Assembly: GCA_947625775.1 (NCBI GenBank)
Contig: CANQPM010000013.1
Location: forward strand, 1-64,000
DNA: 64,000 nt
Direction of reading: 5' to 3'
DNA from: an uncultured Lachnospiraceae bacterium
GTDB taxonomy: Bacteria; Bacillota; Clostridia; Lachnospirales; Lachnospiraceae
Of the stretch, positions 1 through 28,876 are shown piece after piece (the stretch's first letter is position 1; each line of letters begins with the position of its first letter). Position numbers and translations under genes: made by a program. The notes under the pieces were generated by a model that saw only the letters and a program-made list of their open reading frames with translations, had not been told where the DNA came from and made no database searches.

Positions 1-127
1 CGTGTCATTCTGCATGATTTAAAGCATGGAAAACAAGGGAAATTCAAGAAAAAGTGATGAAAAATGATGAATATGTACTTGACAAGTTGCAACAGGAAAT
101 GCAGTTAAAAATTTTTTGAAAAAAGGC

Positions 128-12031: not shown

Positions 12032-12046
12032 GGATGGATAGACAAA

Positions 12047-13483: not shown

Positions 13484-14942
13484 GCTTAAAAAGCTTTTTG
13501 CAAAAAAGGGCCTGTTTGCCTTGATACGCGCCTACGGCTATTCGGGAATTATCTGTACAGGACCTATGCTGCTTGGCATGGCGCTTTTATTTGGGGTTAA
13601 GCTGATTGCGATGTCCAGCGGCATGGCAAAAGACAATCAGGAGCTTTTGAACTGCATGATAACATACACGCTGCTTGCTTCGCTTATGACGACCAATATT
13701 CTGTCCATGGTGACGACGCGATATGTGGCGGACGTGCTTTTTGTCGGGGATGATGGCAAGGTAATGCCTTCGTTTTACGGCAGCATTGCCATAATGCTTA
13801 CGGGCGGCGGGTTTCTGTATGCTGTTTTCCTGCATTTTTCGGGAGTGGGCATTGCGTATCAGCTTTGCTGCCTCATATTTTATATGGAGCTTATAGTGGT
13901 GTGGACACAGATAAATTACCTCACGGCGGTCAAGGATTACCGCGGCATAATGCTTGCGTTTGCGGCGGCTATATGTGGCGCGCTGATCGTAGGCTGGATT
14001 CTTGTGCGCGTGCTCCACAGGGAGGCGATACTGTCGCTTATGGTATCGGTAATCATAGGCTATGGCATAATGCTTGTGTGGTATTATAAGCTTTTAATTG
14101 AATACTTCCCCGAGTGTACGTCAAGCTCCTTTGCCTTTTTGAAATGGCTTGATAAATATCCGCAGCTTGTCGGAGTGGGTACATTTATAGGAATAGGTCT
14201 TTTTGCGCATCTGGTGCTGATGTGGGCAAGTCCGGCGGGCGTGCAGGTGAAAGGGCTGTTTTACGGCGCGCCGATATATGATGTGTCGGCGCTTATGGCG
14301 TTTTTGTCAATACTGATAACCACGATAAATTTTGTCACGTCAGTGGAGGTCAAGTTTTATCCTAAGTATAGGATATATTACGGGCTGTACAATAAAGGCG
14401 GCACGCTTATAGACATACAGAATGCAGAGAAGGAGCTTATTTCTACGCTCAACCGCGAGCTGGGATATACGTTTGCCAAGCAGTTTTTTGCAAGCGTCAT
14501 ATTCATAGTGCTTGGCACGCTGCTGATACCGAGGCTGCCGCTTGGGTTTACGGAGGAGATGCTCGGCATTTACAGGGTGCTCTGCGTAGGCTATGCGTTT
14601 TATTCAGCGGGCAACTGTGTAATGCTTATGTCACTTTACTTTGCAGACAATGCGGGAGCGCTTGTCGATACGGCGATATATGCCGCTTGCAGCGTCATAG
14701 GTACGATAATCACTATGCATATGGATGTAAGGTTTTACGGTTTTGGTTTTTTGGTGGCAGGCATTGTCTTTACGGGAATATCGCTGACGAGGGTTACGCT
14801 TTTTACGAGAAAGCTCAGCTACCATGTAATAAGCTGCCAGCCGTTTACAAATGTGGAGGTAACGGGCGTTATGACGCGGCTGAGCGAAAAATTGGAGGAG
14901 AGGTATCTTGAAAGGGAAAAACGTCTTAAACAGGCACGGTAA
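13464..14942 (+). CDS. pelG: Pel exopolysaccharide transporter PelG
   Basis: Polytopic membrane protein with about twelve hydrophobic segments, member of the PelG family that moves Pel polymer across the cytoplasmic membrane. The opening MAGIGFELKKLF followed by YGYSGIICTGPML is typical. It overlaps both neighbours (20 bases with pelF, 35 with the CotH gene), indicating tight translational coupling. The absence of the outer-membrane genes pelB and pelC is expected in a monoderm cell. Confidence 0.93.
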   Translation: MAGIGFELKKLFAKKGLFALIRAYGYSGIICTGPMLLGMALLFGVKLIAMSSGMAKDNQELLNCMITYTLLASLMTTNILSMVTTRYVADVLFVGDDGKVMPSFYGSIAIMLTGGGFLYAVFLHFSGVGIAYQLCCLIFYMELIVVWTQINYLTAVKDYRGIMLAFAAAICGALIVGWILVRVLHREAILSLMVSVIIGYGIMLVWYYKLLIEYFPECTSSSFAFLKWLDKYPQLVGVGTFIGIGLFAHLVLMWASPAGVQVKGLFYGAPIYDVSALMAFLSILITTINFVTSVEVKFYPKYRIYYGLYNKGGTLIDIQNAEKELISTLNRELGYTFAKQFFASVIFIVLGTLLIPRLPLGFTEEMLGIYRVLCVGYAFYSAGNCVMLMSLYFADNAGALVDTAIYAACSVIGTIITMHMDVRFYGFGFLVAGIVFTGISLTRVTLFTRKLSYHVISCQPFTNVEVTGVMTRLSEKLEERYLEREKRLKQAR

Positions 14943-16779
14943 AAACAGGACAGTATGCCTTGCGCTTATGCTTTGCGCGGCTTTTGCGGCATGCGGCTGC
15001 GCCGTGTCGGAGGATTCGCCGTGGGCGCAGAACCGTAGTGACACGGAAACGCTGTCAGAAAGCGTAAACGGGCAGATGGCGGAACAGGGCGACGATGAGG
15101 GCGCGCAGGCTGCAAAGGGATACATAAACGAGAGCGGGAACTATGAGCAGAGCGGAAATGCGCCAATACATGATAACAAATCGCTGTATGAGCTTGATGA
15201 TGATTTCAGGGTGGTGACAATGTACCTCACTGTCCAGAGCGGCAATGCGTCTGACAACACGGATCACACATGGGCGGAGATAAACCAAAATTCCGCGTAC
15301 TATTATGATGAGCTTGGCATTGAGCGGTACAAGGTTGACGGAATATTAAAGATAGGCAATGAAAATGGACCGATTATGGGTGATTTCGGATATGATGATT
15401 TTACTCCGAACGTTACAGTGACGATAAGAGGCCAGACATCTACAAGAAACGCGCAGAAGAACTACCGGATCAAGATTAAAGACGGAAAAGGAAGCTACAA
15501 GGATCAGACAGTGATCAACCTCAATAAGCATGTGTCAGAGGGGCTGCGTTTCAGAAATAAGCTCTGTTATGATTTAATGGAGGAACTCCCTGGAATGATG
15601 AGCGCCCGCACGCAGTTTGTTCATCTCTATGTGAAGGACAATACGGCGGGAGGCAGCGGCGAGTATCAGGACTATGGCATATACACACAGGTGGAGCAGA
15701 TAAACAAAAAGTACCTTAAAAACCATGGGCTGGATAACAACGGACAGCTTTACAAGATTAATTTTTTTGAGTTTTACCGTTATGAGGATGTGATAGTGCC
15801 CGCGTCAAGCCCTGACTACGATTTGGACACATTTGAGAGCTATATAGAGGTCAAGGGAAGTGATGACCACACTAAGCTCATACGTATGCTTGATGAATTA
15901 AATGATGAGACAATACCGATAGAGCAGACCTTCTCCAAGTGGTTTGACGAGGAAAATGTGTTTTCATGGCTTGCGTTTCATATACTTGTGGGCAATAAGG
16001 ACACACAGGCGAGGAACTGTTTCATATACAGTCCGCTGAATGTTGACAAATGGTATTTTATCTCCTGGGATAATGACGCGTCATTTATGGATACGGAAAG
16101 GCAGATACTGAATTGGAATGACGGGCAGGAGTGGGAAAGCGGCATAAGCAATTATTGGGGCAATGTGCTTTTCAGGAGAGTGTTAAAATCAGACGAATAC
16201 CGTCAAAAGCTTGACGATAAAATCAAGGAATTTAAGGCATTTATGACGCCTGAAAAAATAAATTTTTTGATAGAGGGCTATGATTCGGCGTTGCTGCCGT
16301 ATCTGCAGAGCGTGCCTGACGTATATTATATGCGGCTTAGCTTTGCTGACAGGGAGCGCGTCAAGGCGTCAATCGCAGGGGAAATAGAGGGCAATTACCA
16401 GAAATATCTTCAGTCCCTGCAAAATCCTCAGCCGTTTTTTATCGGCACGCCTGAGATTACGCAGGAGGGCATGCACGTAAGCTGGGATGTATCATATGAT
16501 TTCCAGAATGATGACATATCATATACGGTTGAAGTGGCAGACGACTACTCCTTTAAAGATCCGATATATAAGGAGGAGAATGTATTCCTGCCCGAAGTCC
16601 TGATAAAGACTGAGCTGCCGTCAGGACAATATTTTGTGCGCGTCAAGGCGACGGACAGCGAAGGCAACAGCTCATATGCGTTTGACGCATACATGGGGGA
16701 GAATGGAAAGGTATATGGCACAAAGTGCTTTTACATTCTTGTTGACGGTACGGTAGCGGAGGATATATATGTTGAGTAA
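14908..16779 (+). CDS. CotH-family protein kinase-like lipoprotein
   Basis: An exported protein with a lipobox at the end of its signal peptide (AAFAAC near residue 30), so probably a membrane-anchored lipoprotein. The body is a CotH domain, an atypical kinase fold that phosphorylates spore-coat protein CotB in Bacillus. Visible landmarks are HILVGNKDTQARN and ISWDNDASF (metal-binding D-x-D region). The last about 110 residues look like a fibronectin-type beta domain. The start is TTG 14908, supported by GGAGGAG seven bases upstream and inside pelG. In this setting the target may be a pel-associated surface protein or polymer; that is inference. Confidence 0.82.
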   Translation: MKGKNVLNRHGKNRTVCLALMLCAAFAACGCAVSEDSPWAQNRSDTETLSESVNGQMAEQGDDEGAQAAKGYINESGNYEQSGNAPIHDNKSLYELDDDFRVVTMYLTVQSGNASDNTDHTWAEINQNSAYYYDELGIERYKVDGILKIGNENGPIMGDFGYDDFTPNVTVTIRGQTSTRNAQKNYRIKIKDGKGSYKDQTVINLNKHVSEGLRFRNKLCYDLMEELPGMMSARTQFVHLYVKDNTAGGSGEYQDYGIYTQVEQINKKYLKNHGLDNNGQLYKINFFEFYRYEDVIVPASSPDYDLDTFESYIEVKGSDDHTKLIRMLDELNDETIPIEQTFSKWFDEENVFSWLAFHILVGNKDTQARNCFIYSPLNVDKWYFISWDNDASFMDTERQILNWNDGQEWESGISNYWGNVLFRRVLKSDEYRQKLDDKIKEFKAFMTPEKINFLIEGYDSALLPYLQSVPDVYYMRLSFADRERVKASIAGEIEGNYQKYLQSLQNPQPFFIGTPEITQEGMHVSWDVSYDFQNDDISYTVEVADDYSFKDPIYKEENVFLPEVLIKTELPSGQYFVRVKATDSEGNSSYAFDAYMGENGKVYGTKCFYILVDGTVAEDIYVE

Positions 16780-17494
16780 CGGCGCAAAAAAAAGCTATAC
16801 ATTCCGCCACGAGCTAAAATACCTGATTAAAAGCTGGCAGCAGGAGATAATCGCTGCGAAGCTTGGCTGTTTTCTTGAAAAAGACGCCCACGTCAAAAAC
16901 GGCATTTATACGATCAGAAGCCTTTACTTTGATGACAGGATAAACTCAGCCTATGAGGAAAAGCTGATGGGCACGGCGGAGCGCAAAAAATACAGGATAC
17001 GCCTATACAATTACAGCGACAAAAAAATCAGTCTTGAGTGCAAAAATAAGCAGGGCAACTACATTTTTAAAGAAGGCGCGCCGCTGACGCGTGACGAGAC
17101 GGAGAAAATAATCGCGGGCGACTATGATTTTCTGATGGATAGAAAAGAGGACGTGTGCAAAACCTTCTATTACCAGTGCATGGTAAATGAACTGAGACCG
17201 CGGGTAATCGTGGATTATGAGCGTATTCCGTTTGTATATGACTTGGGGACAGTGCGTGTCACGTTTGACAGCAATATACGCGAGTCCGTGCTTACGGGAA
17301 GCCTGTTTGACGAGGAACTGCCCTACTTTGACGTGATGGCTCCTGACGAGCTTATTCTTGAAGTGAAGTACACGGAACTTCTGCCCGAGTTTATAAGCGA
17401 TGTGCTTACGACGCAGGAGGCGGTGTATGTGGCGGCGTCAAAATATGTAATGTGCTGCGACAGCATAATAAGGCGGAACGGGATTTTGCTGTAA
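16769..17494 (+). CDS. VTC-domain polyphosphate polymerase-like protein
   Basis: A VTC domain of the CYTH/triphosphate-tunnel superfamily. The hallmark basic and acidic strands are present: FRHELKYLI at the N terminus, IRSLYFDD, RKKYRIRLYN, ECKNKQG and LEVKYTELLPEF. In yeast Vtc4 this domain makes polyphosphate from ATP; bacterial stand-alone versions are poorly characterised. No signal peptide, so cytoplasmic. It overlaps the CotH gene by 11 bases and is followed by DUF4956, a trio that recurs in other bacteria. A role in supplying phosphate modification to the exported polymer is possible but not shown. Confidence 0.85.
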   Translation: MLSNGAKKSYTFRHELKYLIKSWQQEIIAAKLGCFLEKDAHVKNGIYTIRSLYFDDRINSAYEEKLMGTAERKKYRIRLYNYSDKKISLECKNKQGNYIFKEGAPLTRDETEKIIAGDYDFLMDRKEDVCKTFYYQCMVNELRPRVIVDYERIPFVYDLGTVRVTFDSNIRESVLTGSLFDEELPYFDVMAPDELILEVKYTELLPEFISDVLTTQEAVYVAASKYVMCCDSIIRRNGILL

Positions 17495-17551
17495 AGCGGC
17501 GGGGAAAGATTAAAAGCTGCGCAAAAGACAGCGCGGAAATGAGGTATAAAA

Positions 17552-18238
17552 ATGAGTGTTCAGGATATGATTAAAAAATCGGTGCTGGAGGCGGACAATT
17601 TCAGCAATGCGATTAATTTCGGCACATTTTTCACAATAATTTTAAATATGGCTGTTGCCGTGCTTGTAGGATATCTGATTTTCAGGATATACCGCAAGTA
17701 TTACAACGGCGTCATTTACAGCAGGACATACGGGCTTACGCTTGTCGGCATGACGATACTTACCTGCATGGTTACGCTTGCAATCTCGACAAACATAGTA
17801 ATATCGCTTGGTATGGTAGGCGCGCTCTCCATCGTGCGCTACAGGACCGCGATAAAGGAGCCGCTTGATCTGCTGTATATGTTCTGGGCGATTACGTCAG
17901 GTATAACCGTCGGCGCAAATATGTATGTGCTTGTAGCAGTAGGCTTTTTGGTGATGTATCTGTTTGTTTCCGTGACATTTGGCAAAAAGGCGGTTGCAAA
18001 TACATATATCCTGATGGTGCGTTATGAAGGCGACGAAAATATCAGTGATAATATAATGCGGGAATTTAACAGCATGAAGCATACTGTCAAATCAAAGCTG
18101 TATAAAAACGGTACATATGAGATGACTGTGGAAGTTACATGCAAGGAGGAGCAGCTTAGCTTTGTGGAGCGCATTGAGAGGGTAATGGGAGTGACGCAGG
18201 TAAGCTTTGTGAAGTACAATGGTGAGTATCATGGTTAA
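17552..18238 (+). CDS. DUF4956 membrane protein
   Basis: Small integral membrane protein: hydrophobic segments at about residues 24-46, 61-83, 87-105 and 110-140, then a soluble C-terminal domain of about 75 residues. The block ISLGMVGALSIVRYRTAIKEP is the conserved core of DUF4956. Function unknown; it commonly accompanies VTC and CotH genes, and the C-terminal domain may face the VTC protein in the cytoplasm. A GAGG ribosome site precedes ATG 17552. It overlaps the next gene by 20 bases. Confidence 0.85.
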   Translation: MSVQDMIKKSVLEADNFSNAINFGTFFTIILNMAVAVLVGYLIFRIYRKYYNGVIYSRTYGLTLVGMTILTCMVTLAISTNIVISLGMVGALSIVRYRTAIKEPLDLLYMFWAITSGITVGANMYVLVAVGFLVMYLFVSVTFGKKAVANTYILMVRYEGDENISDNIMREFNSMKHTVKSKLYKNGTYEMTVEVTCKEEQLSFVERIERVMGVTQVSFVKYNGEYHG

Positions 18239-19685
18239 GCTGCTGAACATTGCGGTGTCCATCGCGATTGCAGGGATTGCGCTCGTCTCATGCGGCATGC
18301 TTTTCAAGACAAAATATTCCATATCTATGGAGAAAAATAATTCAGCCCCGGGACTTAAGCTTAGCGGCGCTCTTGATAAATATGCCGTAAAGCATGTCGG
18401 GGAATATTCAGACGCAAATGATACACAGATACTCTATAATCCTCTTATCGGCTATGCGCCGAACGCTGAAAGCCGCACGGCTGTAGGCGACAATACGCTT
18501 GTCTACATAGATGCGTACTGGAGAGAGCTTGAACCGCATAAGGGTGAATACACATTTGAAAAGCTTTATGCAGAGAACCATATAGAGGAGTACAAGGCAG
18601 AGGGGAAAAAGGCTGTTTTCAGGCTTGTATGCGACTGTCCGGCGGAAAATGAGCACATGGATATTCCCGACTGGCTCTATGAGGAAACAGGCGACGGCTC
18701 ATTTTATGATGTGTCGTATGGCAGGGGCTATTCACCCGATTATTCAAATCCTACATTTATCGAGGCTCACGGCAGGCTTTTGGAGGCGATAGCAGAAGAG
18801 TTTGGCGGGGACAATTTTTTTGCCTATATAGAGCTTGGCAGCCTTGGACACTGGGGCGAGTGGCATGTAAAGTATGACGACGGCATCGTAAGGCTTCCGA
18901 AGGAGAAGGTTTGCATGGAGTATGTAAACCAGTATGTTGACGCTTTTCCAAATACATGCCTTTTGATGCGCAGACCGTTTCTCGGCGTGAAGGAATATGG
19001 CCTGGGCGTATATAATGATATGGTGGGAGAGCCTGATTCTACGCAGGAGTGGCTTGGCTGGCTTTATGACGGCGGGGAATATACTGAACCTGCTGATACT
19101 CATAAATTATATGCCCTTCCTGATTTTTACAGGACAGCGCCCGTAGGCGGCGAGTTTACAAGCCGTCTCAGCTGGGGTGAGATGCTTGGCGATAAGCTTG
19201 ACAGGACAAAGGATTTGATACAGAAGTCGCATATGACGTTTATAGGCCCTAAGTCGCCGCATATAAAATCGGCAGATGAATTTCAGGAGCAGGCTGACGA
19301 GCTACGCCAGCTCTTAGGCTATAAAATCGGCATAGAAAGCGCAGTGACAGGTTATTATGACCTTACAAACAGCTGGTTTTTTGATGTGACGCTCAACAAT
19401 AAAGGCGCCGCGCCGATAAGCTATGATTGGGACTGCTGTCTGTATTTTTACGGCAATGACGGCGCTGTGCTGCAGAGGACACGGCTGCCCGTAAATATCA
19501 CGCAGCTTATGCCTGACGAGAGCGTGTCCATGCGGACACTTGTATCGCCTGACGCGGAGCCTGAGGATATAGCTTGTGTCACAATCGGCATAGAAGATCC
19601 ATACACTGGGCAGCCTGCCATACATTTGAATAATTCAAAGGGTTCTGTAAAAGACGGCTTGGAGATAGTCATTTACCAGCCGTAA
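18219..19685 (+). CDS. DUF4832 domain protein, exported, glycoside-hydrolase-like
   Basis: An N-terminal hydrophobic signal or anchor (IAVSIAIAGIALVSCGMLF) leads into a (beta/alpha)8-like domain with strings typical of DUF4832 proteins, such as YIDAYWRELEP, FAYIELGSLGHWGEWH and the acidic motif around DMVGEP. The last about 110 residues form a beta-sandwich. The likely role is binding or cutting polysaccharide outside the cell, consistent with its place as the last gene of the pel operon, but no activity can be assigned. ATG 18219 overlaps DUF4956; ATG 18231 is an alternative. The 3' end overlaps the convergent TetR gene by 17 bases. Confidence 0.75.
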   Translation: MVSIMVKLLNIAVSIAIAGIALVSCGMLFKTKYSISMEKNNSAPGLKLSGALDKYAVKHVGEYSDANDTQILYNPLIGYAPNAESRTAVGDNTLVYIDAYWRELEPHKGEYTFEKLYAENHIEEYKAEGKKAVFRLVCDCPAENEHMDIPDWLYEETGDGSFYDVSYGRGYSPDYSNPTFIEAHGRLLEAIAEEFGGDNFFAYIELGSLGHWGEWHVKYDDGIVRLPKEKVCMEYVNQYVDAFPNTCLLMRRPFLGVKEYGLGVYNDMVGEPDSTQEWLGWLYDGGEYTEPADTHKLYALPDFYRTAPVGGEFTSRLSWGEMLGDKLDRTKDLIQKSHMTFIGPKSPHIKSADEFQEQADELRQLLGYKIGIESAVTGYYDLTNSWFFDVTLNNKGAAPISYDWDCCLYFYGNDGAVLQRTRLPVNITQLMPDESVSMRTLVSPDAEPEDIACVTIGIEDPYTGQPAIHLNNSKGSVKDGLEIVIYQP

Positions 19686-20289
19686 ATGTCAGATAATTGA
19701 GAGTGCCGGGGGCAATGTCCGTTCCTTTTTCGAGGAGCGCGATAAGCCCCTTTAGTGTTTCCGCCGTTTCCTCAGGCGATGTCGGAAAAAGCGAGTTGTC
19801 AAGCTTTACGGCAATCACGATAAGAACTATTTCGGCAAGCGCCGCGGGGTGGTCAAAGTGGATCTCCCCGTTTTCTATTCCCTGTTTTATAATCTCGGTC
19901 AGGTCGGGCTTTAATTCCGACACAAGGCGCGTGAGATATTTCTGGTGCAGGAATGCAATGTCCTGCGCGCTTGATATTGGAGTTTCAGGCTGCATAAGGA
20001 ATGCCGTCGATGAATTTTGGCACGCCTGAAACAGCATAGCCATGCGCGTAAACGGCGCTATGTCTGTCTGCGAGGCGAGATTTTTTGCCGTCTGCAGCGT
20101 CTTTTCATAGCTGCGCTCTATAAGCGCGTCAAGAATAGCCTCTTTTGAAGGAAAATAATAATAAAGGCTCCCCTTTCCCATGCCCGCCTTTTGGGCGATC
20201 TCACTTACGGAAATGCTTTGGATAGTCCTGTCCTCTAAAAGCTGCTGGAGGGCGTCGAGAATGATATCATATTTTTTTGAATCTGGCAT
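19669..20289 (-). CDS. TetR/AcrR family transcriptional regulator
   Basis: Typical size (206 residues) and N-terminal helix-turn-helix: SISVSEIAQKAGMGKGSLYYYFPSKEAI at about 20-48. The C-terminal domain is all-helical and would bind a small, probably lipophilic ligand. It is divergent from the SCP2 gene, and two identical 16-base operator-like sequences sit in the intergenic region next to that gene, so it most likely represses the SCP2-hydrolase-condensation-carrier-ligase genes. Whether it also represses itself is unclear since both sites are nearer the other gene. Confidence 0.9.
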   Translation of the reverse strand: MPDSKKYDIILDALQQLLEDRTIQSISVSEIAQKAGMGKGSLYYYFPSKEAILDALIERSYEKTLQTAKNLASQTDIAPFTRMAMLFQACQNSSTAFLMQPETPISSAQDIAFLHQKYLTRLVSELKPDLTEIIKQGIENGEIHFDHPAALAEIVLIVIAVKLDNSLFPTSPEETAETLKGLIALLEKGTDIAPGTLNYLTFTAGK

Positions 20290-20418
20290 AAATGTTTCCC
20301 CATTTCACAAATTCGTATTTTAAGAGTGATTTATTATAGCACATTGTAACATTGCATACAATTGTGAATATAAACGGAAAAAATTTTTATTTTTGGTGGA
20401 ATTTTGAGAAAAATGTAC

Positions 20419-20480
20419 TTGACCGACGGTCGAAAAGTGTGTTATTGTTAATTAGATTAAAATCGACCGACGGTCGAAAA
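20419..20480 (+). promoter_or_regulatory. Promoter with twin TetR-type operators
   Basis: GACCGACGGTCGAAAA occurs twice, at 20421-20436 and 20465-20480, 44 bases apart. Each contains the imperfect palindrome CGACCGNCGGTCG-like core typical of TetR-family sites. The first copy overlaps a -35 TTGACC (20419-20424) paired with TTATTG (20442-20447) at 17 bases; the second lies between the start point and the ribosome site. Binding by the adjacent TetR protein is inferred. Confidence 0.75.
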
Positions 20481-20495
20481 ATGAGGAGGAGAAAA

Positions 20496-20927
20496 ATGAC
20501 CTACGCAGATTTATTTTATGAAATCAAAGGAAAATTTATGGGAGCTGACGTGAGTGATATTAAGGAGCACCTTGCATACCAGTTCAGCATTGAGGACGAG
20601 GAGGCTGGCGGCGCGTTTTACGTGGAAGTAAAGGACGGGCAGCTTTTTGTCGAGCCGTATGAATACTATGACAGGGACGCTATGTTTATCTGCTCGCCCG
20701 ATACGCTTTTCAAGATAGCGGACGGAAAGCTTGACCCTGTATTGGCGTTTACAATGCAGAAGCTCAGAGTGGAGGGCAATATCGACAAGGCGCTCAAGCT
20801 CAAGGACATTATAGAGAAAAAGCAGGCGCAGCTTAAAGAAGAGAGAAAAGCGGCAAAGGCTGCTGAGAAAGCGGAAAAAAAGGCGGAGAAGCAGCAGGCA
20901 AAGGATAAAAAATCCGCAAAAAAGTAA
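20496..20927 (+). CDS. SCP2 sterol-binding domain protein with Lys/Ala-rich tail
   Basis: A 143-residue protein; residues about 5-105 match the SCP2 lipid-transfer fold (AFYVEVKDGQLFVEP, then ICSPDTLFKIADGKLDPVLAFTMQKLRVEGNIDKALKL in pieces). The last about 35 residues are almost all Lys, Ala, Glu and Gln, a charged helical tail. Such proteins bind long acyl or sterol-like ligands in the cytoplasm. GAGGAGGA precedes ATG 20496; an in-frame ATG at 20481 lies in the ribosome site and is unlikely. First gene under the TetR operators, which suggests that its ligand is linked to the product or substrate of the downstream enzymes. Confidence 0.85.
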   Translation: MTYADLFYEIKGKFMGADVSDIKEHLAYQFSIEDEEAGGAFYVEVKDGQLFVEPYEYYDRDAMFICSPDTLFKIADGKLDPVLAFTMQKLRVEGNIDKALKLKDIIEKKQAQLKEERKAAKAAEKAEKKAEKQQAKDKKSAKK

Positions 20928-21007
20928 GGTACTGTAAAAGCATCATAAAGGCATCATATAAAAGCAGCATATAGTTTTTAAAAGTCACATAAACGGAGGG
21001 CACAATC

Positions 21008-21979
21008 ATGAAATTTTGGAAGAAGGCGGCAGCAGCTACAGGAATTATCGCGGCGGCGGGAGTCGGCGCGGGAGTTGGGGAGACGGCTTATTTTTACCGC
21101 AGGACTATGAAACGCAACAAAACCGACGTAGAGCGGGCAATCAAGATGTCTGGCACGGACTGGTCGCAGTACGCGCCGATTATGGAGGAGCGCAAAAGCT
21201 TTATGCTGGCGCAGCCCCACAGCGACATACAGCAGATATCGTATGACGGCTTAAAGCTGCACGCCACATATTTTGCGCCGATAAATGACAAGCAGGGCAA
21301 AAAAAGGGCGGTAATTTGTTTTCACGGCTACACCAGCGAGGGAATAGCGGATTATATAGGGCTTTCGGACTATTATTTAAAGAACGGCTACGCTATGCTC
21401 CTGCCCGACGCGCGCGCGCACGGCTCAAGCGAGGGGGAGTATGTAGGCTTTGGCTGTCTTGACAGAAAAGACGCGCTTGTATGGATTAACTGGATTATCG
21501 GTCAGTGCGGCGAGGATGTTGAGATAGTGCTACACGGCACTTCGATGGGAGGCGCGACGGTGCTTATGGCAAGCGGGCTTGATTTGCCTTCGCAGGTGAA
21601 GGGCATAGTTTCCGACTGCGGTTTTACTTCTCCCAAGGAGGTATTTACGCATGTGCTCAAAAATATGTACCATCTTCCCGCTTTTCCTGTAATTCCAGGG
21701 GCGGATATTTTGAACAGGCGGCTTGCAGGCTACGGCATGGACGAGTGCAACGCAAAGCGCGAGGTTAAAAACGCAAAAGTGCCCATTCTCTTTATACACG
21801 GCTCAAACGACAACTTCGTGCCTGCCGCAATGTGCGATGAGCTGTATGAGTGCTGCAGCGCGCCAAAGAGGAAGCTTATCGTCGAGGGCGCGTCGCACGC
21901 CGAGAGCTACTATAAGGCGACAGACGAATATGAAAATGCATTAAACGGGTTTTTTGACGAATTGGTTTTTAAGGGCTAG
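21008..21979 (+). CDS. Alpha/beta hydrolase, membrane-anchored
   Basis: A serine hydrolase with an N-terminal hydrophobic segment (residues about 7-25). The nucleophile elbow is GTSMG with Ser179; the acid is probably Asp in HGSNDNFVP and the base His in EGASHAESY near the C terminus. This subgroup is often annotated as alpha/beta hydrolase or acylaminoacyl-peptidase-like. In the cluster it could act as a thioesterase or as an export-side hydrolase of an acylated product; that is inference. GGAGG precedes ATG 21008 by about eight bases. It is followed after 12 bases by the condensation-domain gene. Confidence 0.85.
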   Translation: MKFWKKAAAATGIIAAAGVGAGVGETAYFYRRTMKRNKTDVERAIKMSGTDWSQYAPIMEERKSFMLAQPHSDIQQISYDGLKLHATYFAPINDKQGKKRAVICFHGYTSEGIADYIGLSDYYLKNGYAMLLPDARAHGSSEGEYVGFGCLDRKDALVWINWIIGQCGEDVEIVLHGTSMGGATVLMASGLDLPSQVKGIVSDCGFTSPKEVFTHVLKNMYHLPAFPVIPGADILNRRLAGYGMDECNAKREVKNAKVPILFIHGSNDNFVPAAMCDELYECCSAPKRKLIVEGASHAESYYKATDEYENALNGFFDELVFKG

Positions 21980-21991
21980 TTCGGGAAAGGT

Positions 21992-23401
21992 ATGGTATTA
22001 TCAATGAAGACTAGAAACGGACACAAGACCTATCCGCTTACAGTAGCGCAGAAATTTCACTTTTACTATATGAACTTCTGCCCGTACAAGGAGGTTGTAA
22101 ACGTAGGCACGAGCCTGACAATCGAGTACGAGCTTGACATAGACGAGCTGAGGCGTGCCATTTACAAGGCGTATGAGCGCTGCGAGTCTATGAGGGTCCG
22201 CTTTTGCTATGACAAGAAAGAAGACAAGTGGTATCAGTATCTGGTTGAAAAGGAAGAGCGCGAGATAGAGTATGTGGACTTCTCAGGCAAGACTATGGAG
22301 GAAGCCGAGGAGATAATGACCGCGTGGACAAGAGTGCCGTTTGAGCGCGAGGATTCGCCTATGAACAGAATCGTTATTATAAAAACTCCCGACGGGTGTC
22401 AGGGTGTCTATTTGCTTGGCGACCATATGCTGCTTGATGCCCAGTCGCTCATCTGCTTTTTGAGTGATGTGATACAGATTTACTGTAATGTTAAATTTGA
22501 GGGAATACCATACCCTTCGGAAATGCGTTCGTATTTTGAGCAGCTGCAGAAGGACTTGGAGTATGAGGCGGGCAGCAAGGCGCAGCAGCGCGACAGAGAG
22601 TATTTTTACAAAAAAATAGAGGAGTCGGAGCCGATTTTCAACGGCATAGACGGGCCTGGAGCTTTGGAGGTTATGCGCAAGACAAATCCTAATGCGAGGG
22701 CGGCGTATTCAGCTACGGCAAATATGAAGTCGGCGCTTGACATTTTTCATCTGGAGGAGGAGCCGACGCAGCGCCTGATGAAATTCTGCGAGGAGAAGCA
22801 TATTTCGCTGCAATGCCTGCTTATAATGGGAATACGCACATATCTGCAGAAGATGAATGGAAATGATGATGTTTCGATAAATGTGGCATATGCAAGGCGC
22901 GCTACGCTTTTGGAGAAGAAGTCTGGCGGCACGAGAATACATTCGTTCCCGTTTAGGACGATAATTTCGCAGGATAAGACGTTTATGGAGGGGATTTACG
23001 CTATACGCGATGGGCAGAATGAGGTGTTTAGGCATACGAATTTTGACCCTGTGGAGTATTTCGCGCATAGAAGCGAGGTTTTCCCTGTGCCAGATGGCGC
23101 GGCTTATGAGCCTATGTCGCTGACTTATCAGCCTGCGACTTTAAAGGAGAGAGGGCTTACGCAGCTTGGCGATGTCAAGTACAAGACGAAGTGGTATCCG
23201 AACGGGGCGACTACGCAGGCGATGTATTTGACTGTAATGCACAGACCTGATGATAACGGGCTTGACTTTAACTTTGAGCATCAGGTGGAGGCGATTACTA
23301 AGGAGAAGTTGGAGTATTTTTACTATTATATGTGCAAGATTATGTTTAAGGGGATAGAAAATCCTGATTTGTCTATTGGGGAGATAATTAAGCTGGTATA
23401 G
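21992..23401 (+). CDS. Stand-alone condensation-domain protein
   Basis: A single free-standing domain of the NRPS condensation/acyltransferase superfamily (469 residues, the normal length for one such domain). The active-site motif HHxxxDG appears as DHMLLDA near residue 146-152: the catalytic second His and the Asp are kept, while the first His and the Gly are changed. C-terminal features include NVAYARRATL and DFNFEHQVEAIT. Expected activity is transfer of an acyl group from a carrier protein to an amine or alcohol. Neighbours are a carrier protein and an AMP ligase. ATG 21992 or ATG 22004 may be the start. Confidence 0.8.
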   Translation: MVLSMKTRNGHKTYPLTVAQKFHFYYMNFCPYKEVVNVGTSLTIEYELDIDELRRAIYKAYERCESMRVRFCYDKKEDKWYQYLVEKEEREIEYVDFSGKTMEEAEEIMTAWTRVPFEREDSPMNRIVIIKTPDGCQGVYLLGDHMLLDAQSLICFLSDVIQIYCNVKFEGIPYPSEMRSYFEQLQKDLEYEAGSKAQQRDREYFYKKIEESEPIFNGIDGPGALEVMRKTNPNARAAYSATANMKSALDIFHLEEEPTQRLMKFCEEKHISLQCLLIMGIRTYLQKMNGNDDVSINVAYARRATLLEKKSGGTRIHSFPFRTIISQDKTFMEGIYAIRDGQNEVFRHTNFDPVEYFAHRSEVFPVPDGAAYEPMSLTYQPATLKERGLTQLGDVKYKTKWYPNGATTQAMYLTVMHRPDDNGLDFNFEHQVEAITKEKLEYFYYYMCKIMFKGIENPDLSIGEIIKLV

Positions 23402-23542
23402 TGAAGCTTTGGAGAGAAATTCTTATTGCCAGAAGTGGTTTTAGTCTGGTAAAATGGCGGTATCAAAATGCGGTCGTAGCGTTTTAGAGTAATATTTGAA
23501 ATGTCTGGGTGCTGCAAAATATAATGAAAGGCGGATAATAGA

Positions 23543-23767
23543 ATGTTTGATAAGTTGGCTGATATTATTGTTAATTATGTGGAGGTAAATAGGGAGGATA
23601 TTAAGCCTGAGTCTAGGTTTATGGAGGATTTGGGGTTTACGTCGTTTGACTTTATGAGTATGCTTGGGGAGATTGAGGATGAGCTTGATGTGGAGATAAA
23701 TCAGGAGGAGGCGGCGAATATCCGAACTGTGCAGGAGGCGGTCGAGTATTTGGAAAAGATATCATAG
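23543..23767 (+). CDS. Acyl carrier protein
   Basis: A 74-residue acidic four-helix carrier protein. The phosphopantetheine attachment serine is in DLGFTSFDF (Ser34), a variant of the usual DSL motif. GGCGG precedes the ATG. It lies between a stand-alone condensation protein and an AMP ligase, so it is a dedicated carrier rather than the fatty-acid ACP. No phosphopantetheinyl transferase is in the window, so a housekeeping one must serve it. Confidence 0.93.
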   Translation: MFDKLADIIVNYVEVNREDIKPESRFMEDLGFTSFDFMSMLGEIEDELDVEINQEEAANIRTVQEAVEYLEKIS

Positions 23768-23827
23768 AGATTATTTTACAGAGTTGTTATTTATACTAAA
23801 CAGGCATTTATAACAGGTGTTCTCAAC

Positions 23828-24070
23828 CGTCCGAATTTAGTCAAAATATATAAAAACGCGACTTGGTGCGCGATGCGAATCGTCGCTGATTTTATATATT
23901 TTGCCTAAATTCTACGTTATCGAATATGGACTTGGTGTAGTATCTAGTACATAGATAATTGCGGAATGTTTTCTATGCCGTCCGAATTTGTGTGAAATAT
24001 ACAAAAACGCGACTAGTGCGCGGGGCGAATCGTCGCTTATTTTGTATATTTCCCCCAAATTCTACGTTAT
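23828..24070. repeat. Two copies of a 93-bp palindromic element, plus a partial third
   Basis: Copy 1 is 23828-23920 and copy 2 is 23978-24070. Both begin CCGTCCGAATTT and end AAATTCTACGTTAT, and each folds on itself (AAAATATATAAAA on the left against TTTTATATATTTT on the right in copy 1, with core CGCGAC...GTCGC). A right-end fragment lies at 24111-24137. A core-deleted relative lies at 38552-38592. The remaining part of the 485-base gap up to the ligase gene holds no gene I can support. Confidence 0.85.
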
Positions 24071-24252
24071 GAAAAAAACTTCGTAGGTATGTCTGTAATG
24101 TATGCGGTTGGGAATTTTCCTCCAATTTTACGTTATGGATAAGACTTTGTAGAGTAATGTTGTAGGATAATGAGAAGTAGTGTAATTTTCTCTATGTATT
24201 TGATGTCGGCTTATAGCTGGTAATTGTTATAGGCAGATGAGGAGGAGTTAGT

Positions 24253-25785
24253 ATGGTTGGACTTTGCAAAAACTTGAGGGAGCTGCTTGTGGCGGCGGAG
24301 GCTGAATTTAATGTGCGCGATGCGTTTCGATATAAGGTAAGGGGCGCGGGCGGCGGTAAGAAGGAAATAAGCATAGAAAGCAAGAGCTATACGCAGTTAA
24401 AGTGTGACAGTGAAAAGATGTCGGCTGCTTTGGAGGCGCTTGGCGAGCTGGGGAAGCATATTGCGATAGTGGGCGCGACTTCGTATTCGTGGGTTGTGTC
24501 GTATTTGGGTACGGTGAACAGTGCGAGTGTTGCGGTGCCGCTTGATGCAAATCTGCCAGCGGAGGATTTATGTGAATTGATTGAACGCGCTGATGTCACT
24601 ACGCTTATTTTTGACGAGGGTAAGGAGCAGCTTGCGGAGCTTGCTGCTGAGAGGTGCGGCAATTTGAAGCATATTATCTGTATGGGCGAGGCGTTTAATG
24701 ACAGCCAGCTTTCTCTTTGGAAGCTGCTTGATGAGCAGAGTGAGGGCTTTGAGTGTGGGATGGAGCCGCAGCAGCTTGCGACGATTATGTTTACGTCAGG
24801 CACGACGGGCAAGAGCAAGGGCGTAATGCTTACGCATCAAAATCTTGCGGAGAACGCGACTTGTCTTGATATGGGGTTTGAGCCTAATCAGGTGCTTTTG
24901 TCGGTGCTTCCGATACATCATGCGTATTGTCTGAGTATGGATATTTTAAAGGCGCTGTCGCTTGGCAGCACTATCTGTATAAATGATTCTCTGCTTAGGG
25001 TGGCAAAGAATATAAAGCTTTTCAAGCCTAATATGATGCTTATGGTGCCGCTTATGATAGAGACGCTTGCAAAAAAGCTTGAGGAAGCAGGTCCGCTACC
25101 TGCGGCGGTAGTAAAGGCGGCGGTTTTTGGGAAACAGTTTCACACGATATGCAGCGGCGGCGCGTACTTAAATCCCGCATATATTGATTTGTTTGCAAAG
25201 TATGATATCGAAATCAAGCAGGGCTACGGCATGACAGAGTGCTCGCCTGTTATCAGCACGAACTATACAGGCAACACGAAAGCTGGTTCTGTAGGAAAGC
25301 TTATGCCGAATTGCGAGGCAAAGGTGGTTGACGAGGAAATCTGGGTTAAGGGTACAAGCGTAATGCAGGGCTACTATAAGATGCCCGAGGAGACGGCGCA
25401 GACGCTTGAAGACGGTTGGCTAAAGACAGGCGATTTGGGCTATGTGGACGATGAAGGCTATGTATTTCTCACAGGCCGCAAGAAAAACCTCATCATTACG
25501 CCAAACGGCGAGAACGTATCGCCTGAGGAGATTGAAAACAGGCTTGGCGAAAACAGGCTAGTGCAGGAGGTGCTTGTGCGCGAAAGCGACGGCGCTATCG
25601 AGGCAGAGATATTCCCCGACTACGAGTATGCCAAAAAGAAAAAAATAAAGGACATACAGGCAGAGCTGCAGAAAATAATCGACGACTACAACAAGACCGC
25701 GCCGCTTTATAAGCGTGTATTCAGGCTTAAAGTGCGCGAGGTAGAGTTTGAAAAGAACACTACTAAAAAGATTAAGAGATTTTAA
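24253..25785 (+). CDS. AMP-dependent acyl ligase (ANL superfamily)
   Basis: A 510-residue adenylate-forming enzyme. Core motifs are visible: MFTSGTTGKSKGV (P-loop, about 177-189), YGMTECSP (about 327-334), TGDLGYVDDEGY and GRKKNLI in the hinge, and a C-terminal Lys in NTTKKIKRF. It should activate a carboxylic acid with ATP and load it on the nearby carrier protein or on CoA. It resembles long-chain acyl ligases more than amino-acid adenylation domains, but specificity cannot be read safely. GAGGAGGAG precedes ATG 24253. It is separated from the carrier gene by the hairpin-repeat region, so co-transcription is uncertain. Confidence 0.9.
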   Translation: MVGLCKNLRELLVAAEAEFNVRDAFRYKVRGAGGGKKEISIESKSYTQLKCDSEKMSAALEALGELGKHIAIVGATSYSWVVSYLGTVNSASVAVPLDANLPAEDLCELIERADVTTLIFDEGKEQLAELAAERCGNLKHIICMGEAFNDSQLSLWKLLDEQSEGFECGMEPQQLATIMFTSGTTGKSKGVMLTHQNLAENATCLDMGFEPNQVLLSVLPIHHAYCLSMDILKALSLGSTICINDSLLRVAKNIKLFKPNMMLMVPLMIETLAKKLEEAGPLPAAVVKAAVFGKQFHTICSGGAYLNPAYIDLFAKYDIEIKQGYGMTECSPVISTNYTGNTKAGSVGKLMPNCEAKVVDEEIWVKGTSVMQGYYKMPEETAQTLEDGWLKTGDLGYVDDEGYVFLTGRKKNLIITPNGENVSPEEIENRLGENRLVQEVLVRESDGAIEAEIFPDYEYAKKKKIKDIQAELQKIIDDYNKTAPLYKRVFRLKVREVEFEKNTTKKIKRF

Positions 25786-25965: not shown

Positions 25966-27036
25966 ATGGCAGAAAATAAGGCGCTTGGCAAATCAAGCAT
26001 AAGCTTTGGAGAGCCTGTGCTTATAATGGGAAGCGGCTCAATCGTAGGACAGATGGAAAACGAAGGACCGCTTGCGGGGAGCTTTGACAAGGTAAGCGAT
26101 GACAAAAACGACATGTTTGGCGAGGATTCATGGGAAAAGGCGGAGAGCGCGCTGCAAAAGGAGGCAATCGCCATAACGCTTGAAAAGACAGGGCTTGACG
26201 CAAACGAGGTGCGCTATTTGTTCGCGGGGGATTTGCTCGGACAGACGATAGCAAGCTCATTTGGCGTGCTCGACTACAATATCCCATTTATGGGATTGTA
26301 CGGCGCCTGCTCCACCTGCGGCGAAGCGCTGTGCGTGGGCGCTATGACAGTGGCGGCAGGCTACGCGGACACAGTTATGTGCCTTACGTCAAGCCACTTT
26401 GCAAGCGCGCAGAAGGAATTTCGCTATCCGCTCGAATACGGCGGGCAGCGACCTCTCTACGCATCATGGACAGTCACAGGCAGCGCGGGCTTTCTGCTGC
26501 AGTCGCAGGCAATAAGCCAAAGCGCCAATAAAGCGGCAAAAAACAACTACAGCTGCAAAATTGCAATAACAGGTGTTACGATTGGCAAGATTGAGGATTT
26601 TGGCATAAAGGACTCTTTCAATATGGGCTGCGCGATGGCGCCAGCCGCCGCATGGACTATTTCCACGAATCTAAAGGACTTTGGCAGGACAACAGACGAC
26701 TACGACGCAATTTTTACAGGTGATTTGGGCAGCGTCGGCAGCGACGCGCTATACACGCTTTTAGACGAGCAGAAAATTGATGTCTGTTCAAAGCACTATG
26801 ACTGCGGTATGCTTATCTACGACCTGAACTCACAAGACGTACACGCAGGGGGAAGCGGCTGCGGCTGCTCCGCAGTAGTGCTTTCAGCCCATATCCTGCA
26901 CAAAATCGAGCAGGGCGAATGGCGGCGCATACTCTTTGTCCCCACAGGCGCGCTGCTGAACAAAACCTCCTTCAACGAAGGCCAGAACGTACCGGGGATA
27001 GCGCATGGCGTGGTGATTGAAAGGATAGAAATGTAA
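25966..27036 (+). CDS. spoVAD: Stage V sporulation protein AD
   Basis: A thiolase-fold protein that binds dipicolinic acid and helps to load it into the forespore in Bacillus. Family phrases include GEDSWEKAES, LFAGDLLGQ, LYGACSTCGEAL, SSHFASAQKEFRYPLEYGGQ (in pieces) and WTVTGSAG. It is clearly SpoVAD and not a ketoacyl synthase of the neighbouring ligase cluster. GGAGG precedes ATG 25966. Its usual partners spoVAC and spoVAE are not adjacent: spoVAE is 1.5 kb downstream and spoVAC is not in the window. Confidence 0.95.
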   Translation: MAENKALGKSSISFGEPVLIMGSGSIVGQMENEGPLAGSFDKVSDDKNDMFGEDSWEKAESALQKEAIAITLEKTGLDANEVRYLFAGDLLGQTIASSFGVLDYNIPFMGLYGACSTCGEALCVGAMTVAAGYADTVMCLTSSHFASAQKEFRYPLEYGGQRPLYASWTVTGSAGFLLQSQAISQSANKAAKNNYSCKIAITGVTIGKIEDFGIKDSFNMGCAMAPAAAWTISTNLKDFGRTTDDYDAIFTGDLGSVGSDALYTLLDEQKIDVCSKHYDCGMLIYDLNSQDVHAGGSGCGCSAVVLSAHILHKIEQGEWRRILFVPTGALLNKTSFNEGQNVPGIAHGVVIERIEM

Positions 27037-27054
27037 ACTTTTTTATATTAGACA

Positions 27055-27083
27055 TTTAAAAGCTGGCGAAAATATGATATAAT
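27055..27083 (+). promoter_or_regulatory. Promoter for the 76-residue protein gene
   Basis: TTTAAA (27055-27060), 17 bases, TATAAT (27078-27083). Confidence 0.5.
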
Positions 27084-27185
27084 TAATCCATTACAGGCTT
27101 CTGCCATATTTGCAGGGAAAACAAAAAATGGTGGCAGCGATTCTGCATATGTTTTGAGCCGCGGATAGCGGCATGGAGGATTAAT

Positions 27186-27416
27186 ATGCGTCAGATGGAG
27201 TTTAAGATGGAGCGGCCGGGGCTTGTGAAGGAGGGCGATACCGTCACAGTCACGGAGAGCAATCTTCCCAGCAGCTATTATTATACGATAGATCCTGCCG
27301 TGGCGATGTCGGGCAACATACCCTTCAGGGAGCGCCTGCTGTCGCGGACAGGAAAGGTAACATCAATAGAGGAAAACACGCGCGGCTATTACGTCACAGT
27401 AGAGTTTGACGAGTAG
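27186..27416 (+). CDS. Small conserved-looking protein of unknown function
   Basis: A 76-residue protein that I do not recognise. It has a credible ATG with GGAGG seven bases upstream, its own promoter, and codon use like its neighbours. The sequence looks like one small beta barrel: two Thr/Val-rich strands (DTVTVTESN and [19 protein letters not shown]) around a central turn. No signal peptide or membrane segment. It lies between spoVAD and ridA but is not clearly co-transcribed with either. Confidence 0.65.
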
Positions 27417-27546
27417 CCTGCGTTTTTTGCCGTTACTTAGCATGCATTGATATGTAATTGAAAAACGCGTTCTAATTTCTATGCTGTCAAATAGAGTTTT
27501 TCAAATTTCTAATTGATAATATAAAAAGAAAAGAGGTAATCACAAA

Positions 27547-27924
27547 ATGAAAAAAATCAGCACAGACAAAGCGCCCGCGGCAATAGGGCCGTATTCACAG
27601 GCAATCGAGGCAGGAAACTTCCTGTTCGCGTCAGGGCAGATACCCATTAATCCCGCGACAGGCAATGTCGAGGCGCAGGGCATCACAGCGCAGGCAGAGC
27701 AGTCAATGAAAAACGTAGGCGAAATATTAAAGGCAGCAGGCTTAACCTACGACAATGTGGTAAAAACCACCTGTTATCTTGCGGAAATCGCAGACTTTGG
27801 CGCATTCAACGAAGTATATGCCAAATATTTCACGCAAAACCCCGCGCGCAGCTGCGTAGCCGTAAAGGATTTGCCCAAGGGCGTACTCTGCGAGGTAGAG
27901 GTAACAGCATACCGTGAGAATTAA
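27547..27924 (+). CDS. ridA: RidA family enamine/imine deaminase
   Basis: A 125-residue RidA/YjgF protein, normal length. RidA hydrolyses reactive 2-aminoacrylate and related enamines released by PLP enzymes. Landmarks are APAAIGPYSQAIEAG, FASGQIPINPATG, the active-site arginine in PARSCVAV and the C-terminal CEVEVTAYREN with its conserved Glu. GAGGT precedes ATG 27547. The 3' end overlaps the kinase gene by 11 bases, so the two are translationally coupled. Confidence 0.95.
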   Translation: MKKISTDKAPAAIGPYSQAIEAGNFLFASGQIPINPATGNVEAQGITAQAEQSMKNVGEILKAAGLTYDNVVKTTCYLAEIADFGAFNEVYAKYFTQNPARSCVAVKDLPKGVLCEVEVTAYREN

Positions 27925-28423
27925 AAACATAATACTTATAGGAATGCCCGGCGCAGGCAAAAGCACGATAGGCGTGGTGCTTGCCAAAAACCTCGGAATG
28001 TCCTTCATTGACGCGGATCTAGTCATTCAGGAGCGGGAGGGAAAAAAGCTGCACGACATCATAGAGGAGCGCGGTGAAAACGGCTTTATAGAGATAGAAG
28101 GCCGCGTAAATGCATCGCTTAATCCCAAGACGGCGGTAATCGCCACGGGCGGCAGCGTAATCTACAGCCCAAACGCCATGGAGCATTTTGAACAGCTTGG
28201 ACTGATATGCTACTTAAAGCTTTCATATGAAAGCATAGCAGAGCGCCTTGGCGACCTGGCAGAGCGCGGCGTCATACTCGGCAAAGGCCGCACATTAAGA
28301 AACTTGTACGACGAGCGCGTGCCCCTGTATGAAAAATATGCGAATATTACGCTTGAATGTGAAAACAAGAACATACGCGAAATAGTAGTCGAGCTTTCAA
28401 AATGGATAGAAAGGCTAAGATAA
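27914..28423 (+). CDS. Shikimate-kinase-like small-molecule kinase with altered substrate residues
   Basis: A P-loop kinase of the shikimate kinase fold (169 residues). Walker A is GMPGAGKST (10-18), the DxD is FIDADLV (D33, D35), and the lid arginine is in LYDERVPLY. Two substrate-site hallmarks differ. The arginine of the GFRxxE motif is Ile59 (GFIEIE), and the usual TGGG loop reads TGGS. In characterised shikimate kinases that arginine holds the shikimate carboxylate, so this enzyme may act on another substrate. No other aromatic-pathway gene is nearby. The start is GTG 27914, inside ridA. Confidence 0.75.
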   Translation: MRIKNIILIGMPGAGKSTIGVVLAKNLGMSFIDADLVIQEREGKKLHDIIEERGENGFIEIEGRVNASLNPKTAVIATGGSVIYSPNAMEHFEQLGLICYLKLSYESIAERLGDLAERGVILGKGRTLRNLYDERVPLYEKYANITLECENKNIREIVVELSKWIERLR

Positions 28424-28450
28424 TTTAAACTGAATAAAAAACAGAAAATT

Positions 28451-28505
28451 CCACATACTTTTCCTATAGGCGGCATATGCCGCAATATTTAGGAAAGGCA
28501 TGTGG
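28451..28505 (+). promoter_or_regulatory. 55-bp inverted repeat enclosing the spoVAE ribosome site and start
   Basis: An inner perfect palindrome GCGGCATATGCCGC (28470-28483) is flanked by 16-base arms (28451-28466 and 28490-28505) with two imperfect pairs. The right arm contains the ribosome site AGGAAAGG and the GTG start codon. In RNA this would close the start of spoVAE; it may also terminate the kinase transcript, though no U-run follows directly. Confidence 0.7.
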
Positions 28506-28876
28506 TTTTTGATATGATGGATTATATCAATGCTTTCTGGGTAGGCGGCGTCATCTGCGCCCTCGCACAGATATTTCTCGACCGTACTAAAATGCTGCCC
28601 GGCCGCGTAATGGTGCTGTTAGTGTGCCTCGGCGCAGTCATAAGCTTTTTCGGGCTTTATGAGCCGTTCTCCGAGTATGCGGGAGCGGGCGCAAACGTGC
28701 CGCTCTTAGGCTACGGCAATATACTGATGAAAGGCATCAAGGAAGCAGTCGATAAAGACGGCTTTATAGGACTTTTCAAAGGCGGCTTTACAAACGGCGC
28801 AGTAGGCTGCAGCGCCGCGCTCATTTTCGGTTATCTTGCAAGCCTTGTATTCAAATCCAAGGTAAAAAAGGCGTAA
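28502..28876 (+). CDS. spoVAE: Stage V sporulation protein AE
   Basis: A short membrane protein (124 residues, three to four hydrophobic segments) of the SpoVAE/SpoVAEB family, part of the forespore channel for dipicolinate. Family strings are FWVGGVICALAQIFLDRTK and LGYGNILMKGIKEAVDKDG. The start is GTG 28502 with AGGAAAGG just upstream; ATG 28514 is an alternative. The start region is buried in an inverted repeat. It is detached from spoVAD by three unrelated genes. Confidence 0.9.
   Translation: MVFDMMDYINAFWVGGVICALAQIFLDRTKMLPGRVMVLLVCLGAVISFFGLYEPFSEYAGAGANVPLLGYGNILMKGIKEAVDKDGFIGLFKGGFTNGAVGCSAALIFGYLASLVFKSKVKKA

Follow-up and report, generated by a model that had tools for sequence, protein, structure and literature searches.

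A TetR-linked branch of probable fatty acid amide cassettes with SCP2 and hydrolase genes in Lachnospiraceae

The window analysed here is a stretch of 64,000 nucleotides from an uncultured Lachnospiraceae bacterium (assembly GCA_947625775.1, contig CANQPM010000013.1). At positions 19669-25785 it harbours a gene for a TetR-family regulator on the minus strand and, divergent from it, five co-directional genes coding for an SCP2-fold protein, an alpha/beta hydrolase (ABH), a condensation protein (C), an acyl carrier protein (ACP) and an AMP-forming ligase (A). This cassette very probably synthesises an N-acyl amide, as a regulated member of the published fatty acid amide (FAA) or 'CTA' cassettes, in a branch with three extra parts. 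The C-ACP-A core is of a known kind. The shell of SCP2, hydrolase and TetR with its operators is the part for which no published account was found as far as the literature was read, and it belongs to a Lachnospiraceae branch with a fixed layout. Sequence comparison establishes the gene set, its conservation, the kinship with the condensation protein OaaC, the integrity of the catalytic residues and the association of TetR with the operator. The six genes named in a preliminary description of the window were all recovered with their domains by Pfam analysis; the span it had given, 20289..25785, covers the five co-directional genes and leaves out TetR (19669-20289, minus strand).

Identity of the core enzymes and conservation of the cassette

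The free-standing C protein (21992..23401, plus strand, 469 aa; Pfam Condensation 1.3e-35) was assigned to the FAA type by structure search and trees. Its best solved relative is OaaC of Coprococcus eutactus (12KH), with an E-value of 9.1e-108 over nearly the whole length and about 38% identity, the next structure being found at 4e-08. Acyl groups carried on ACP and free amines are the substrates from which OaaC builds fatty acid amides in vitro (PMC13142362). The translation revealed the active-site motif DHMLLDA at residues 144-150 (22421..22441, plus strand), aligned to DHRLMDS of OaaC. The preliminary description had taken this site as altered, and its first His is indeed exchanged; what is retained, in a (D/H)HxxxD form with Ala at position 7, is the second His together with the Asp. 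DHMLLDA is nevertheless a usual motif of the FAA condensation family: among 127 sequences the second His reaches >99%, the Asp is conserved, and position 7 is Ser in 42%, Ala in 36% and Gly in 17% (PMC13142362). The first position also varies within the branch of the window (D 65 and H 3 in 68 loci from named genomes; D 27, H 5 and N 5 in 37 sampled loci).

Two phylogenies were calculated. With FastTree (146 distinct C proteins, after removal of 6 identical ones from 152), the smallest clade containing all 103 SCP2-positive members comprised 112 leaves with a support of 0.977, the rooting being arbitrary. Position 7 was Ala in 112/112 leaves of this clade, including L025, which has ambiguous bases and a gapped motif, and outside of it Ser in 29, Ala in 4 and Gly in 1. 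With IQ-TREE (39 sequences), FAA-type C proteins including those of the window and OaaC were split at 100/100 from an outgroup of 10 Clostridia nonribosomal peptide synthetase (NRPS) C domains, which left out named subtypes such as starter domains. Support was 99.1/100 for the ABH-bearing branch and 100/100 for the OaaC branch, and weaker (87.6/83) for the node uniting both.

The ACP (23543..23767, plus strand; Pfam PP-binding 1.7e-11) passed the acyl carrier protein model NF002150 with 67.9 bits for a cut-off of 66, and its Ser34, likely the phosphopantetheine site, is kept in at least 97% of 127 rows. In the ligase (24253..25785, plus strand; Pfam AMP-binding 3.3e-64) the motif TSGTTGKSKG and K506 were conserved in 120 rows. 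That this enzyme is rather of the acyl than of the amino acid type, as proposed earlier, agrees with its best NCBIfam models, which are acyl ligases, the long-chain acyl ligase PRK06187 being matched at 2e-72; this last match is under its cut-off, as none of the best 25 of 103 models reaches its curated cut-off. Against AA-adenyl-dom the ligase obtained 148.5 bits for a cut-off of 317.4. Free-standing C, carrier and acyl-type ligase are found in one operon in the order C-ACP-A, as in the FAA/CTA sets, and the features of a canonical NRPS are missing, with one ligase (acyl-type by its best models) and one carrier protein in the cassette.

The OaaA/OaaACP/OaaC set likewise consists of free-standing ligase, ACP and C proteins, which form an amide between a fatty acid and a free amine (PMC13142362), and a CTA operon of condensation, carrier and ligase genes was reported in 36 species, all Lachnospiraceae (PMC13060934). 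Since both papers describe such a set in connection with acyl amines, the core of the cassette is of a known kind. The N- or O-acylated small lipid proposed as product in the preliminary description is very likely right in its N-acylated form, by a pathway already in print, and the designation as an undescribed system was dropped, as the OaaC structure and the papers on this pathway of gut Clostridia cover the core chemistry.

The neighbourhood search revealed related cassettes in many other genomes, and co-occurrence of the genes is thus not confined to this one. Altogether, 71 loci of this kind were identified in named genomes (L002-L072), and a C homologue at 1e-20 was detected in 55/397 Lachnospiraceae genomes, that of the window included (at most 4 candidates per genome scored); in the genus to which one relative belongs, 18/40 genomes were positive. 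At class level, 46/391 genomes gave C matches at 1e-15, which include ordinary NRPS proteins. The 55 other loci of the family were sorted into 38 of the window type, 12 of the OaaC type, 3 with C alone and 2 others. Window-type loci displayed ABH in 38, ligase in 38, ACP in 37, SCP2 in 36, TetR in 31 and all six genes in 30 cases; the 12 OaaC-type loci had no SCP2, no TetR and no ABH at threshold, with ACP in 12 and ligase in 11. Among the 70 named loci with C, ABH was found in 69, ACP in 67, SCP2 in 66, ligase in 61, TetR in 60 and the complete set in 52, and many of the 18 incomplete sets are located at contig ends. Named and sampled sets share some contigs, and the counts of gene presence and of gap dyads (see below) keep these duplicates.

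Gene order and strands were identical in 89/89 loci with six genes detected, a count in which named and sampled sets overlap in species without deduplication; this agreement is far greater than chance would give. Sixteen loci were obtained from outside the family, of which 9 display ABH-C-ACP-A without SCP2 or TetR at threshold and 5 display C-ACP-A; one of the latter (L230) has little upstream DNA, another of the 16 ends within C and L233 is under the length limit. Three loci (L115, L116 and L117) carry FAA-type C genes with DHRIMDS, around which neither a ligase nor a carrier gene reached threshold over about 6 kb, L116 having LacI and xanthine-dehydrogenase-type neighbours in its annotation.

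A search of the 397 family genomes with the ligase at 1e-100 (at most 3 candidates per genome) gave 56 matches. Six of them lie in frames of 1199-1310 aa, are a different kind of protein and belong to genomes without C match; the other 50, all in frames <600 aa, adjoin a C gene (50/50) on comparison by eye, so that no close ligase was kept without its condensation partner. The ligase-like domains of the long frames (about 1200-1310 aa; genomes G369, G188, G067, G365, G325 and G023) are 39-42% identical.

The region between the ACP and ligase genes of the window measures 485 bp and looks, by eye, wider than in most related loci. It contains two copies of a hairpin repeat of about 90 bases (23825-23925 and about 23990-24075). 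A folding energy of -33.5 kcal/mol (z -5.07) was computed for the first copy, and the core pattern occurs twice in the whole genome, both times in this gap.

The TetR regulator and its predicted operators

The TetR-family regulator (19669..20289, minus strand; Pfam TetR_N 5.3e-14, TetR_C_39 5.5e-07) very probably acts on two predicted operators in front of the operon. The palindrome GACCGACGGTC is present at 20421..20431 (operator 1) and 20465..20475 (operator 2), no strand being assigned to either; the two copies are 44 bp apart, and the sequence is found nowhere else in the 3.75-Mb genome (assembly completeness 98.77%). Operator 1 overlaps the -35 hexamer of a putative promoter, TTGACC-18-TATTGT (20419..20448, plus strand, 9/12 matches). 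The promoter search is weak by itself, with 16 sites of this quality in the region for 10.6 in shuffles; a pattern TTGAC(C/T)-16..18-TANNNT was found in the gap of 99/100 TetR-bearing loci, a count made without control pattern.

Comparison across genomes supported the operators. The exact operator core was detected in 39/100 loci. A relaxed dyad, GACYNNNRGTC, drawn up after inspecting the gaps of six other loci, occurred in 99/100 gaps between TetR and the first gene, with at least two copies in 73, and in 73/73 of these loci the last two dyads were 43-45 bp apart. In total, 172 matches were located in such gaps (24.7 kb) and 32 in the 1275 kb elsewhere in the loci, which corresponds to a rate ratio of 277, compared to 1.8 and 1.1 for two control dyads.

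Presence of the regulator tracks the operator. In loci with C of at least 600 bits (6 identical loci dropped, 7 excluded for short upstream DNA), the relaxed operator was found within 500 bp of the first gene in 93/95 loci with TetR and in 1/10 without TetR (Fisher 1.8e-10, uncorrected for kinship). The exceptions are L021, L148 and L181, with L148 having a dyad further off. On the C tree the presence of TetR switches at least 8 times, leaves off the TetR-minus list being counted as plus. No operator dyad was detected in OaaC-type, C-only and outside loci, save for lone matches 1.9-2.7 kb before C in L112, L113 and L227. The association between TetR and operator is thus evident from the compared loci. 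A wider TetR regulon was considered and rejected: the exact site is absent elsewhere in the genome, and a relaxed 14-mer gave 3 other places for 1 and 5 with the reversed control.

The position of operator 1 on the -35 box is as expected of a repressor, and TetR would accordingly repress the operon. The second operator, about four helical turns further on, suggests paired binding. In locus L187, of a genome taken to be Eubacterium rectale ATCC 33656, the TetR gene (about 3850-4732) reads in two overlapping frames, while it is a single frame in the related L188; a real break or a sequencing error could explain this. If the break is real, the operon might be constitutive there.

Proposed function and alternatives

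The working of the cassette is inferred: which reaction this copy catalyses and on which acyl and amine substrates, how ABH and SCP2 contribute, what TetR binds as ligand, that it is a repressor, and how the cell benefits. The ABH, probably a membrane-tethered esterase, would free fatty acids from esters, and SCP2 would bind them in the cytosol. The ligase would then activate the fatty acid with ATP and load it on the carrier protein, and the free-standing C would use this loaded carrier to acylate an amine that diffuses freely, releasing an N-acyl amide. The dedicated TetR repressor would occupy both operators, of which the first overlaps the putative -35 box, until a lipid (fatty acid, acyl thioester or product) releases it; plentiful fatty acids would thereby switch the operon on. 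A lipid is rather likely to be the TetR ligand. The benefit may be fatty acid detoxification, host signalling or both.

SCP2 (20496..20927, plus strand, 143 aa; Pfam SCP2 6.7e-15) has no second copy in the genome at E 0.01. Its gene start was placed at 20496, and not at the TTG at 20352, because the Met at the former is invariant in 20/20 aligned rows. The structural model (pLDDT 90.4) has the fold of SCP2-type lipid carriers and aligns with SCP2 structures including one with a bound C16 fatty acid, the top match being the SCP2-like part of an alkylsulfatase.

The ABH (21008..21979, plus strand; Pfam Hydrolase_4 1.4e-14), esterase- or monoglyceride-lipase-like, displays a conserved Ser-Asp-His set in the row alignment. 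An N-terminal hydrophobic stretch was detected in 98/128 rows using a 19-residue hydropathy cut-off of 1.4, the protein of the window being just under it with 1.35; the N-terminal helix was modelled with low confidence, and membrane tethering is likely on the basis of these predictions. That the enzyme supplies fatty acids has about an even chance of being right. The ABH could instead be an editing thioesterase or a product-cleaving amidase, the operon then setting a reversible balance. Such a role is possible but on the unlikely side: the top fold matches of the ABH are the esterase Pf2001 and monoglyceride lipases, a thioesterase scoring slightly lower, and the 10 Pfam families listed for the protein include no amidase, although the fold is too common to decide. 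A related hydrolase near OaaC-type C (184-196 bits; 5/12 loci and 2 more) was given no weight, because an unlinked paralogue in the genome of the window itself equals it (198.8 bits).

It is improbable that the product is another N-acyl or O-acyl lipid, such as an acylated alcohol, amino sugar or membrane head group, which SCP2 and ABH would then handle. The limited identity of C to OaaC, the Ala at position 7, which goes in step with the branch, and the additional lipid-handling genes would fit such a product. However, the same cassette is present in the relative carrying L187 (genome G418), which we take to be E. rectale ATCC 33656. Production of lauroyl tryptamine is ascribed to E. rectale DSM 17629 (PMC11561910), and, if the name is right, the branch of the window already has a known product in that species. 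Moreover, Ala already occupies position 7 in 36% of the 127 FAA condensation domains (PMC13142362). An ordinary split-NRPS remnant making a small acyl-peptide with amino acid acceptors is very improbable: Pfam gives a general Condensation domain and NRPS models do match weakly, but these matches are far under cut-off, the cassette lacks both an acceptor carrier protein and an additional adenylation domain for amino acids, and the C clade stands apart from the 10 NRPS C domains at 100/100.

Several points weigh against the regulated amide synthase proposed here. The C protein shares only about 38% identity with OaaC, and therefore the acyl donor or the nucleophile could differ. The fold of the hydrolase is a common one, and fatty acid esters are its putative substrates. 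The name E. rectale for the genome of L187 is tentative, and the published producer is another strain of the species. The shell is not indispensable: 8/38 window-type loci of the family miss a part at threshold (TetR in 7, SCP2 in 2, ACP in 1), and neither SCP2 nor TetR was detected at threshold in any of 15 loci read outside Lachnospiraceae. An enzyme-level control was proposed, in which acyl-ACP opens the C dimer and TetR is not needed (PMC13142362). In the window alone, a shorter form of the operator, ACCGNCGGT, gave 2 matches for 0.27 expected, and 4/100 shuffles also gave 2, a weak significance, and the operator claim is for this reason carried by the cross-genome comparison. An inverted-repeat finder (at least 8 bases) returned none in the intergenic region, because the arms of the palindrome are short.

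A tentative extension of the N-acyl amide pathway, somewhat less probable than its negation, is that the shell makes the known amide synthase of three enzymes part of a self-contained circuit that responds to fatty acids: the repressor would sense exogenous fatty acid or its thioester, and the operon would free, carry and neutralise it as a host-active amide. If this holds true, dietary fat would directly set the output of lipids active on G protein-coupled receptors in a good share of Lachnospiraceae via a conserved two-site operator. Host receptors are targets of fatty acid amides from gut Clostridia (PMC13142362, PMC13060934). The main text of both papers is silent on TetR. Two evenly spaced sites with a dedicated regulator, kept throughout a Lachnospiraceae branch and mostly missing from loci that lack this regulator, indicate where to search for what turns on these host-active lipids. 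In addition, the layout and the Ala marker allow genome surveys to split two amide-synthase branches which are now counted together.

Neighbouring genes and comparison with known systems

Upstream of the cassette (10172-19685) is a Pel-type exopolysaccharide operon with DUF2194, a DUF3492 glycosyltransferase, PelG, a CotH kinase, a VTC domain, DUF4956 and DUF4832. Downstream (25966-28876) are spoVAD and a SpoVAC/SpoVAEB gene and, between them, a RidA-family gene and a shikimate-kinase-like frame identified by reading. A link to SpoVA (spoVAD from 25966) was excluded from the system, since L002-L004 alone among the 71 loci have a spoVAD match behind the ligase, several others having short downstream DNA; it thus adjoins the cassette in the closest relatives only.

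FAA clusters of gut Clostridia were reportedly described by Chang in 2021. Two papers citing that work are PMC12479983 and PMC11565975. In the open-licence literature, covered by titles and the beginning of abstracts, no SCP2/TetR shell around FAA genes was found, and Chang 2021 may draw flanking genes. The combination of SCP2, fatty acid amide and biosynthetic gene cluster gave nothing in that literature, likewise that of SCP2 and Clostridia, and a search for fatty acid amide, TetR and Lachnospiraceae gene cluster gave nothing relevant among the matches listed. On the CTA operon, PMC13060934 was the one relevant paper.

The Oaa set of C. eutactus shares with the cassette the free-standing ligase, carrier and C, the DHxxxD-type motif with its second His, and a C protein homologous over its full length. 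In contrast, OaaC belongs to a sister branch at about 38% identity and has Ser at position 7, as most of that branch, where the window has Ala. None of 12 loci sampled from the OaaC branch, a sample without the C. eutactus locus itself, has SCP2 or a window-like TetR; L103, the only one annotated, has a nearby TetR of another type (TetR_C_8). Among 14 loci of this branch, the 3 kb preceding C are free of operator dyads in 12 and contain a lone one, more than 2 kb off, in 2.

The CTA operon of Blautia wexlerae likewise unites C, carrier and ligase genes in one operon, with acyl amines as products and a detoxification rationale. CTA-positive Blautia and Coprococcus isolates yield more acyl amines than CTA-negative ones (a comparison between isolates, with no gene deletion in the sections covered). 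When B. wexlerae is exposed to fatty acids, amines rescue it, and fatty acid detoxification was proposed (PMC13060934). SCP2, TetR and hydrolase are absent from the main text of this paper, a difference from the cassette described here. A further comparison is offered by L187: its motif is HHMVVDA and its TetR lies in two overlapping frames, but it has the same six genes in the same order with an operator dyad upstream, and its C protein is 64.7% identical to that of the window.

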